Source of the DNA: Mesorhizobium sp. 61-13
GTDB taxonomy: Bacteria; Pseudomonadota; Alphaproteobacteria; Rhizobiales; Rhizobiaceae
Length of the DNA: 37,172 nt
Assembly: GCA_001897075.1 (NCBI GenBank)
Contig: MKRZ01000213.1
Location: forward strand, 8,053-45,224
Direction: 5' to 3'
The translations under genes and the position numbers were made by a program. Below, piece by piece: positions 1-2,288 of this stretch (the first letter of the stretch is position 1; every line of letters begins with the position of its first letter). The notes beneath the pieces were generated by a model that did no database searches, had not been told where the DNA came from, and was given only the letters and a program-made list of their open reading frames with translations.

Positions 1-714
1 ATTCATCTGCTGCGCGATCTGCGCATCGCTATGACCCTTCACGGTGAGTGACGACAGCGAATAGGTGTCGCCAGCCGCAGGGGCTGCGCCCGCCGTCGGA
101 ACCTGAGCCGTACCGGTGACCGCACCAGTCGTGCCAAGGCGGGCTGCATCGAGAATGCCCTTCTTGGTCGGTGCCGCGCCAGCGTCGTAAAGCTTGATGT
201 CGTCGACCTTGATGTCGATGGTGGAGATCGACGCTGCGCCGGCTGAACTGCGGTTGAAGGCAGACACGACTTTGACGTCAGCCGAAGCGCCAGTGGCGTT
301 CGAAACCGACAGCATGTTCGTGCCGGAGAAAGTCGCAGCATCGGCATAAGACTTCATCTGCGCCTGAAGCGATGCGATTTCCGTCTGGATCTTTTCCTTG
401 TCGGCGTCGGTTGCACCGTAGGCCGCCACCAGCTTGACCTTGATCTGGTTAACCGTGTCGATGGCTTTGTTCATGCCGGTGTAGGCAGTGTCGACCTTGG
501 AAGCGCCGAGGCCGAGGGCGTCCTGCACCGTCGTCATTGCCTGGTTGTCGGAACGCATCGTGGTAGCGATCGACCAGTAAGCGGCGTTGTCGCTGGCGTC
601 GTTGACGCGGTAGCCGGTCGAGATGCGCGACTGGGTCGATTCGAGGTTCTTGTTGGTTGCATTCAGGCTCTGCAGAGCCGTCAACGCCGAAGCGTTGGTC
701 ATGATACTGGCCAT
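1..714 (-). CDS. fla: flagellin (3' end truncated by window edge)
   Basis: Reading minus from ATG at 714: MASIMTNASALTALQSLNATNKNLESTQSRISTGYRVNDASDNAAYWSIATTMRSDNQAM..., the canonical flagellin N-terminal D0/D1. Open to the window edge; not listed in the ORF track because the stop lies outside the window. Confidence 0.95.
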   Translation of the reverse strand, partial: MASIMTNASALTALQSLNATNKNLESTQSRISTGYRVNDASDNAAYWSIATTMRSDNQAMTTVQDALGLGASKVDTAYTGMNKAIDTVNQIKVKLVAAYGATDADKEKIQTEIASLQAQMKSYADAATFSGTNMLSVSNATGASADVKVVSAFNRSSAGAASISTIDIKVDDIKLYDAGAAPTKKGILDAARLGTTGAVTGTAQVPTAGAAPAAGDTYSLSSLTVKGHSDAQIAQQMN

Positions 715-813
715 GTACTCGTACCTTTACACGTATTGCTGTGACATACCGGCTTGTCCGGTATGACGGTACGGCATCATGCCAATGATCGCTCAAACCC
801 GATCACCCGCCAT
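715..813 (-). repeat. duplicated flagellin leader, copy 1
   Basis: Near-identical to 2095-2201, including the start context, the CATACCGG/CCGGTATG hairpin and GGCATCATGCC. Confidence 0.85.
745..765 (-). promoter_or_regulatory. leader hairpin upstream of flagellin 1
   Basis: CATACCGG-CTTGT-CCGGTATG: perfect 8-bp stem with a 5-nt loop, 30 nt upstream of the ATG. Confidence 0.65.
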
Positions 814-957
814 TGCCCGCAACGTGGCAGAGACTTCCTAGGAAACCGATAAGCGCCGTGGTTAACAGTGTGTTTTACGTAACATTGTGCGGTTGAAGAT
901 CTGAATCAAGAAGCTGATTTCTTGATTCCAGTAAGCCGGTCAAGACTCTGATTTTAA

Positions 958-990
958 AAAGAAAAGGGCCGCGCTTTTTGGCACGGCCCC
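958..990 (-). terminator. Rho-independent terminator of the complete flagellin gene
   Basis: On minus, about 20 nt after the stop: GGGGCCGTGCC AAAAA GCGCGGCCC followed by TTTTCTTTTT. Confidence 0.8.
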
Positions 991-1011
991 GATTGGCGAA
1001 GTTTGGTTGGT

Positions 1012-2094
1012 TTAGCGGAACAGCGACAGGATCGACTGCGAACCAGAGTTGGCGATCGACAGCGCCTGGATGCCCAACTGCTGCTGAACCTGCAGCGCCT
1101 GAAGGCGGGTCGATTCCTTGTTCATGTCGGCATCGACGAGCTGGCCGACACCGCGGTCGATGGAGTCCATCAGGCTCTGCGTAAAGGTCTTCTGCAGGTC
1201 GATGCGACTCTTGGCAGCGCCGAGGTTGGTCGCTGCCGTCGTCATCTGCTTGAGCACCGAGTCGACCTTGCTGAGCATCGCACCGATCGTGCCATCAGCA
1301 GCAGCGGTGATGTCGAGATTGAAAACGGACTTTGTCGCGATGACCGTCGCGGTGCCGTCTGCTGCCGTTGCGGCCGTCGCCGCAGCCGTCTTGGCTGCCG
1401 TGTCGGTTGCGCCGCCGGCAATCTGCGTGGCGAAGGTCGATTCGAAAGCGTCCTGTGCTTTCGCCGTGCTGTAGATGGCCGTTTCCCGATCAAGAACGCC
1501 GGCATTCTTGAGGTTCGCCGCCGTGCCGGAATCAAACAGCTTTGTGCCTTCGACCTTGATGTCGATGGTGGAGATCGACGCAGCGCCGGAAGAATTACGA
1601 TTGAAGGCCGATACGACCTTGACGTCCTGCTGGACGCCCGTGTCGGCCGCAGCCGCCGCACCGGCGGCATCCTTGGTCGATGTCACCGACAACATGTTGG
1701 TGCCGGAGAAGGTTGCGGCCTCGGCATAAGACTTCATCTGCGCCTGAAGCGACGCAATTTCGGTCTGGATCTTGGCCTTGTCGGCGTCGGTCGCACCGTA
1801 GGCCGCCACCAGCTTGACCTTGATCTGGTTGACCGTGTCGATCGCCTTGTTCATGCCGGTGTAAGCGGTGTCGACCTTGGAAGCGCCGAGGCCGAGTGCA
1901 TCCTGAACCGTCGTCATGGCCTGATTGTCGGAACGCATCGTGGTGGCGATCGACCAATATGCAGCGTTGTCGCTGGCGTCGTTGACACGGTAGCCGGTCG
2001 AGATGCGCGACTGGGTCGCTTCGAGGTTCTTGTTGGTTGAATTCAGGCTCTGAAGAGCCGTCAACGCCGAGGCGTTGGTCATGATGCTGGCCAT
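1012..2094 (-). CDS. fla: flagellin, tandem paralog of the first
   Basis: 360 aa with complete D0/D1 N-terminus and C-terminus (QALSIANSGSQSILSLFR). N-terminal third nearly identical to the adjacent truncated flagellin. Confidence 0.97.
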   Translation of the reverse strand: MASIMTNASALTALQSLNSTNKNLEATQSRISTGYRVNDASDNAAYWSIATTMRSDNQAMTTVQDALGLGASKVDTAYTGMNKAIDTVNQIKVKLVAAYGATDADKAKIQTEIASLQAQMKSYAEAATFSGTNMLSVTSTKDAAGAAAAADTGVQQDVKVVSAFNRNSSGAASISTIDIKVEGTKLFDSGTAANLKNAGVLDRETAIYSTAKAQDAFESTFATQIAGGATDTAAKTAAATAATAADGTATVIATKSVFNLDITAAADGTIGAMLSKVDSVLKQMTTAATNLGAAKSRIDLQKTFTQSLMDSIDRGVGQLVDADMNKESTRLQALQVQQQLGIQALSIANSGSQSILSLFR

Positions 2095-2201
2095 GTACTC
2101 GTACCTTTACACGTTTTCACGCATTACTGTGACATACCGGCTTGCCCGGTATGACGGTACGGCATCATGCCAATGATCGCTCAAACCCAATCACCCGCCA
2201 T
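2095..2201 (-). repeat. duplicated flagellin leader, copy 2
   Basis: Near-identical to 715-813, with an 8-nt length difference between the hairpin and the ATG. Confidence 0.85.
2133..2153 (-). promoter_or_regulatory. leader hairpin upstream of flagellin 2
   Basis: CATACCGG-CTTGC-CCGGTATG: identical stem to the one at 745-765, 38 nt upstream of the ATG. Confidence 0.65.
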
Positions 2202-2288
2202 CACCGGGACCATGACAGGCAGTCCCTGCAAATTGGATAAGGGTTATGGTTAGCGAAATCTAAATCGGCGCTGATCGACGAATTCTTG

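Follow-up and report, generated by a model that had tools for sequence, protein, structure and literature searches.

A structured leader RNA ahead of flagellin genes across the order Hyphomicrobiales and its association with one clade of FlbT proteins

Two neighbouring flagellin genes of Mesorhizobium sp. 61-13 raise the question of what the hairpin shared by their leaders represents. Both genes lie on the minus strand of the stretch analysed here (37,172 nucleotides, the window), and both leaders contain CATACCGG-N5-CCGGTATG (window 745-765 and 2133-2153). The stems (745-752/758-765 and 2133-2140/2146-2153) are complementary at 8 of 8 positions, the loops read CTTGT and CTTGC on the plus strand, and the spacers from hairpin to ATG measure 30 and 38 nt, in each respect as a preliminary description of this DNA had it. 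That description took the hairpin to be a candidate control element acting in the flagellin mRNA leader, with a constrained stem and a variable spacer, and a possible RNA target of FlbT, FlaF or another RNA-level regulator. Comparison among genomes establishes the structure of the RNA, where it occurs, which genes it precedes and, in the sampled genomes, its co-occurrence with one FlbT clade (FlbT-L); the role of the RNA is argued from these observations below.

Architecture of the leader RNA

By comparison of leaders, the hairpin is one part of a larger folded RNA of ~73 nt, with a copy ahead of each flagellin gene. The features are as follows (window coordinates of the element are contig coordinates minus 8052; R1 and R3 are covariance models).

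1-714, minus strand: flagellin gene 1, 5' part; ATG at 714-712, translation MASIMTNASALTALQSL..., the gene continuing past the window start
1012-2094, minus strand: flagellin gene 2, 360 aa; Flagellin_N 2.9e-28, Flagellin_C 8.8e-19
741-813, minus strand: leader RNA element, copy 1, ahead of flagellin gene 1; R1 E=2.1e-15, R3 E=5.1e-14
2129-2201, minus strand: leader RNA element, copy 2, ahead of flagellin gene 2; R1 E=3.3e-15, R3 E=3.0e-13
807-813 (copy 2: 2195-2201), minus strand: P1 5' arm, ATGGCGG; pairs with 763-769
763-769 (copy 2: 2151-2157), minus strand: P1 3' arm, CCGTCAT; its CAT overlaps the outer pairs of the first-noticed hairpin
801-805 (copy 2: 2189-2193), minus strand: P2 5' arm, TGATC; two-sided changes in 5 of 5 P2 pairs
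786-790 (copy 2: 2174-2178), minus strand: P2 3' arm, GATCA; evidence from covariation and cross-pairing
773-783 (copy 2: 2161-2171), minus strand: PL hairpin, GGC-AUGAU-GCC; 99.4% paired
748-762 (copy 2: 2136-2150), minus strand: P3 hairpin, ACCGG-N5-CCGGT; 97.6% of cells paired; core of the first-noticed hairpin
715-728 (copy 2: 2095-2108), minus strand: Shine-Dalgarno region, AAAGGTACGAGTAC; self-complementary in the window

P1 (ATGRCGG/CCGYCAT) has arms separated by ~37 nt in the window and encloses P2 (TGAYC/GRTCA) and PL (GGC-AUGAN-GCC) in a three-way junction. P3 (ACCGG/CCGGT) comes after the junction and abuts P1, its outer pair being seen as A-U, G-C and U-A. PL is the best-conserved part of the element, and its AUGAN loop is near-invariant.

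This architecture revises two readings in the preliminary description. The 8-bp stem was mis-parsed in part: the CAT within CATACCGG has its partner in the ATG that opens the element on the 5' side, and across the order CAT is, on the comparative evidence, the 3' end of P1, which leaves the outer CAT/ATG pairs of the hairpin as a local possibility. In other genera just the ACCGG/CCGGT portion persists, and the stem as a unit was dropped as a search pattern, as exact-stem scans overlook most carriers. The sequence GGCATCATGCC (plus strand) is present beside both hairpins (773-783 and 2161-2171), where it had been described as a conserved 5-1-5 palindrome; it is really a 3-bp stem with an AUGAN pentaloop, for which GGCATGAAGCC and GGCATGACGCC also occur. 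Its reading as a DNA palindrome was rejected because the dyad symmetry is lost in other genera. Short upstream reading frames starting at the ATG in CCGGTATG were likewise rejected, neither frames nor stops being conserved.

The window's own genome holds two copies of the hairpin motif in total; a scan allowing up to 2 mismatches found no third, and the reversed pattern, used as a control, gave 0. Across the genus, the exact stem occurs in 32 of the 37 genomes of the relatives set (the window's genome counted; the other carriers have one copy each), its 5-nt loops differ freely, and the genus alignment has the leader conserved whole from ATGGCGGG to CCGGTATG, beyond the hairpin alone. Several other members of the genus have a further flagellin leader with a degenerate version (GACGGGC...GGCATGACGC...). 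A third flagellin gene lies on the same contig upstream of the window start (L003:6468-7541, minus strand, apparent start TTG); its leader is without the element and has an unrelated GC hairpin, CCGGCCC-GTGTAT-GGGCCGG, instead. Directly 3' of flagellin gene 2, between the two flagellin genes, a strong intrinsic terminator-like hairpin occupies window 965-990 (minus strand; 10 bp plus a T-rich tail).

In most other genera an extra hairpin, P4 (UGUCCC/GGGRCA), follows P3 and lies over the Shine-Dalgarno sequence. A full 6-bp partner is found 10-15 nt before the ATG, over the Shine-Dalgarno sequence, in 33 of 35 TGTCCC leaders; TGTTCC leaders have a GGAACA partner in 4 of 4 cases and UGUCCU leaders have AGGAC in 2 of 2. 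P4 was counted separately in this way because its cross-pairing score (a test described below) over all leaders reaches z=2.3 only, the window's group being without P4. In the window's genus, where P4 is absent, the Shine-Dalgarno sequence sits within a small self-complementary sequence like GGTACGAGTACC.

The energy-minimum fold of the window leaders differs from the conserved fold and pairs GUACC with the Shine-Dalgarno sequence; it lies 7-12 kcal/mol below the conserved fold with the gene start included and ~6-8 kcal/mol below without it. The long-range pairing concerned, UUGGCAUGAUGCCGUACC/GGUACGAGUACAUGGCCAG, was rejected as a part of the conserved structure: it has no covariation support because GUACC is not conserved while GGUAC is. 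It may be a window-specific alternative at most.

Covariation, distribution and the genes preceded

Helix P1 was recognised because 38 leaders keep a pairable combination between column 4 of ATGRCGG, the 5' segment, and the facing position of CCGYCAT (G-U 20, A-U 11, G-C 7, A-C 0). In divergent leaders the sequence of P1 alters and its pairing stays (ATAGCGAGGT/GCTTCGTTAT, ACAGCAG/CTGCTGT, ATGGTGGG/TCCACCAT, TCGGCGGGG/CTCCGCCGA); P2 likewise swaps bases yet pairs (GATC/GATC, GACC/GGTC, GGTC/GACC, GAAC/GTTC and others), and P3 keeps just ACCGG/CCGGT with a loop of varying length. In alignment A4, which comprises 115 sequences fitted to the model, 93.7% of cells are paired and two-sided changes occur in 15 of 20 pairs; for P1 the figures are 95.5% and 7 of 7. 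None of 500 shuffles scored as high, and sliding by one column cuts pairing to 40-48%.

Since A4 was fitted to the model, model-free cross-pairing tests were run as well, in which, among leaders less than 80% alike, the best stem formed by a leader's own two arms is compared with that formed when arms are swapped between leaders. For 61 leaders P1 reached z=8.5 and P2 z=10.6 (0 of 2000 permutations as high). For 50 further leaders from named public genomes, picked by the pattern of PL, P3 and TGTCCC only, with P1 and P2 not used, the values were 9.6 and 11.2 (0 of 3000), the permutations in both sets leaving relatedness among leaders partly in place. Over paired positions read on the mRNA strand, G-U cells outnumber A-C cells by 89 to 45, a bias that would be expected were the mRNA strand the functional one. 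The RNA structure is well supported by these comparisons. Two-sided changes and cross-pairing agree, and the compensatory changes together with the G-U bias favour an RNA-level element of the flagellin leader, as initially proposed, over a DNA palindrome; the picture of a constrained element in drifting surroundings is likewise borne out across leaders.

The exact stem is present in 22 of the 109 sampled genera of the family (249 genomes), mainly ahead of flagellins and often in tandem. Covariance model R1, built from the 38 leaders, lifts this to 83 genera and has matches in 164 of the 249 genomes, among them tandem arrays such as the eight matches in G196, most ~1.2 kb apart. With model R3 the element is found in 72 of 298 genomes of the order, in about 20 families besides the window's. 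Named carriers include Bradyrhizobium, Sinorhizobium, Neorhizobium, Aminobacter, Brucella/Ochrobactrum, Hyphomicrobium, Xanthobacter, Methylocystis, Microvirga and Roseibium. A strict-filter search of 337 genomes of the class gave one marginal match outside the order (E=0.0035), and a plasmid search using the leader gave no match. Neither the window nor a set of 20 divergent leaders gave an Rfam 15 match, and no earlier description of this leader RNA was found in the literature searched. On this evidence the structured leader RNA is real and spans the order Hyphomicrobiales, with no entry in Rfam and no account in the literature searched.

The genes after the element are flagellins in nearly all cases, and the rows scored as non-flagellin among the 50 further leaders are mostly flagellins for which the script overlooked the start codon. 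The leader motif also stands before a protoglobin-MCP gene in several genera (L172-L177, L179-L181, L221, L222). Nine further matches at the family level are of this kind; Pfam confirms three of these genes (L172, L174, L179) and the remainder are assigned by similar translations. Downstream reading frames at L172 and L179 resemble response-regulator and CheA-type genes. In these chemotaxis leaders P1 is imperfect and P4 not evident. Weaker matches in other families stand ahead of MCP, MCP-CheW and CheA-like genes.

Upstream of P1, TTAACC is enriched, as are GGTAGG ~29-37 nt before it and CCATA mostly ~13-19 nt before it; the promoter-like CCATA is found in 20 of 88 leaders against 3.3 expected. 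From the positions of these motifs we infer that transcription would begin just upstream of P1. In the window, a conserved TTAACC...TTA...TTTGGTAGGGACT...CATA lies upstream of the elements (830-900 and 2220-2270, minus strand) and is common to flagellin leaders of many genera; it is possibly a CtrA half-site plus -35/-10 sequences. In S. meliloti, CtrA motifs have been reported upstream of the start sites of flaA, flaC, flaD, mcpE and mcpY (PMC3616915).

FlbT and the proposed control of flagellin synthesis

Among flagellar proteins, FlbT is the one with a reported action on the 5' UTRs of flagellin mRNAs, in Caulobacter and in Brucella (PMC4347634). According to the same 2015 review it has been proposed to bind the fliC 5' UTR, by a mechanism left unresolved, and its effects are opposite in the two genera (PMC4347634). 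In Caulobacter, FlbT regulation is reported to reach Che transcripts too (PMC9812332), and flagellin and chemotaxis genes are the two classes that the element precedes.

The window's genome encodes FlbT (G000:C28:10020-10388, E=1.6e-37), and FlbT was found in 70 of the 72 element-bearing genomes of the order, the two without a listed match including one 86% complete genome. In six genera the number of FlbT genes per genome is either one or two; 19 of the 21 genomes with two carry the element, against 0 of the 15 with one (Fisher p=2.4e-8), leaving 2 two-FlbT genomes without an element match. A tree of 60 FlbT proteins, from a sample that was chosen and not random, has two deep clades that marker positions tell apart. 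The FlbT-L clade (support 1.0) has 21 proteins, 21 of 21 being from element-bearing genomes, and 0 of the 33 from element-lacking ones; its members include the window's FlbT and, for the four genomes represented by both of their copies, the second copy; the other clade holds all 33 proteins of element-lacking genomes and the remaining copies. No solved structure of any FlbT relative was found by sequence. The co-occurrence of element and FlbT-L is an association in the sampled genomes, and since a whole flagellar system travels with FlbT-L, the pattern does not distinguish FlbT from the rest of that system. Taken with the element on chemotaxis leaders, it is consistent with FlbT as the binder without amounting to proof, and FlbT-L is the leading candidate for a protein that would bind the leader.

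The leader is likely to act on translation or stability of flagellin mRNA, and it probably gates translation, most likely through FlbT-L. In the scheme as drawn we infer transcription of the leader, translational gating and FlbT-L binding. Each flagellin mRNA would start with the folded leader, P1 standing at or near its 5' end and enclosing a three-way junction of the variable-sequence P2 hairpin and PL with its invariant AUGAN loop. The GC-rich P3 would abut P1, and in most of the order P4 would then mask the Shine-Dalgarno sequence. Folded in this way, the leader would hold back flagellin synthesis until it is needed. A flagellar regulator, most likely FlbT-L with FlaF or flagellin as partners, would read the junction and the AUGAN loop and decide between opening of the Shine-Dalgarno sequence and decay of the mRNA; with the element also on chemotaxis leaders, this would be a shared switch for late motility genes. 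Counting against the scheme are the absence of P4 in the window's genus, the departure of the window leaders' minimum-energy fold from the conserved fold, and the chemotaxis leaders with their imperfect P1 and no evident P4.

Among other explanations, the structured leader may serve mainly to stabilise the 5' end of a highly abundant mRNA or to enhance its translation, with no dedicated protein, P1 blocking 5'-end-dependent decay and P3 and P4 tuning ribosome loading. The spacing of CCATA in a subset of leaders (mostly ~13-19 nt upstream of P1, 20/88 against 3.3 expected) would put P1 near the 5' end, and the sequence of P1 is free to vary provided it pairs, both of which suit a stabiliser. 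A plain stabiliser would not need the AUGAN loop and the GGC/GCC of PL to be near-invariant across the order, however, and the presence of the element tracks one FlbT clade; this explanation is unlikely. A binder other than FlbT (FlaF, flagellin itself, another RNA-binding protein, a small RNA or a metabolite) would fit the element ahead of chemotaxis receptor operons, which goes beyond flagellin feedback alone, and the FlbT-L co-occurrence equally marks every gene of that flagellar system; such a binder is nonetheless rather improbable given that the one flagellar protein with a reported effect on flagellin 5' UTRs, in Caulobacter as in Brucella, is FlbT (PMC4347634) and that its regulation in Caulobacter is reported to extend to Che transcripts (PMC9812332).

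It is highly improbable that the inverted repeats are DNA operators of a dimeric transcription factor in the promoter region. Within the window's genus CATACCGG-N5-CCGGTATG does form a perfect palindrome at the DNA level, its spacer fixed at 5 bp, and promoter-like elements lie just upstream. Outside the genus, however, the spacer length varies; P2 loops vary in length, the P1 arms are separated by ~35-45 nt of variable content, G-U combinations are favoured over A-C when the mRNA strand is read, and the dyad symmetry of GGCATCATGCC is lost in other genera. That the shared hairpin is a passive remnant of recent flagellin gene duplication has a negligible chance of being right, for although the window's two genes and leaders are close paralogues, the same element with covarying stems in dozens of genera refutes it, and by this comparison the hairpin is more than chance or recent duplication.

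With FlbT-L as the preferred binder, a broader reading can be put forward tentatively: this Hyphomicrobiales-wide RNA family may be a dedicated target of FlbT-L, forming a post-transcriptional regulon that would tie flagellin and chemotaxis mRNAs to flagellum assembly through opening and closing of the Shine-Dalgarno hairpin.

Comparison with known systems

A flagellar RNA already known in the same order is the Rfam family RF01736 (flg-Rhizobiales RNA), which is also a structured cis-regulatory RNA before flagellar genes. It differs in sequence and structure, with GGGAGA motifs, and its matches here precede flgF-like rod genes, not flagellins. At its gathering score (55 bits) it has no match in the window, at E<=10 it has none in the leaders, and none was found in the genus or in the 20 divergent leaders. 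Membership in RF01736 was rejected, as the leaders do not match its covariance model and its matches in relatives precede rod genes. Two sub-threshold RF01736 matches (L033, L034), from two further families within the order, stand ahead of flgF-like genes.

In the CsrA/FliW system of Campylobacter, flagellin mRNA is likewise controlled at the RNA level through its leader (PMC4894983). A CsrA-type leader was rejected here, as there is no conserved GGA in the hairpin loops (PL has AUGAN and the P3 loop varies freely) and the architecture differs.

Other parallels involve FlbT. Brucella melitensis, of the same order, has FlbT-dependent fliC production (Ferooz 2011, as cited in PMC4347634 and PMC8781033), FlbT being proposed to act on the fliC 5' UTR. 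There FlbT is an activator, and the relevant portions of PMC4347634 and PMC8781033 describe no RNA structure; named Brucella species carry the PL/P3/TGTCCC pattern. The FlbT-responsive fljK leader of Caulobacter crescentus (Anderson and Gober 2000, as cited in PMC4347634 and PMC3930126) is likewise a flagellin mRNA leader under post-transcriptional control in a genome with an FlbT gene, and flagellin and Che transcripts are both involved in Caulobacter (PMC9812332), as with the element here. The strict-filter search of 337 class genomes gave no convincing example beyond the order, so homology with the Caulobacter leader is not evident; the covarying three-way junction, AUGAN loop and Shine-Dalgarno hairpin make up an RNA of its own. 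The mechanism of FlbT was still unresolved in the 2015 review (PMC4347634), and a covarying RNA that has an invariant loop and a Shine-Dalgarno hairpin, and that in the sampled genomes co-occurs strictly with one FlbT clade, offers a concrete, mutable target in tractable rhizobia. Should chemotaxis leaders respond as well, the element would define an RNA-level regulon for late motility genes in an order whose members include many soil bacteria as well as nitrogen-fixing symbionts.
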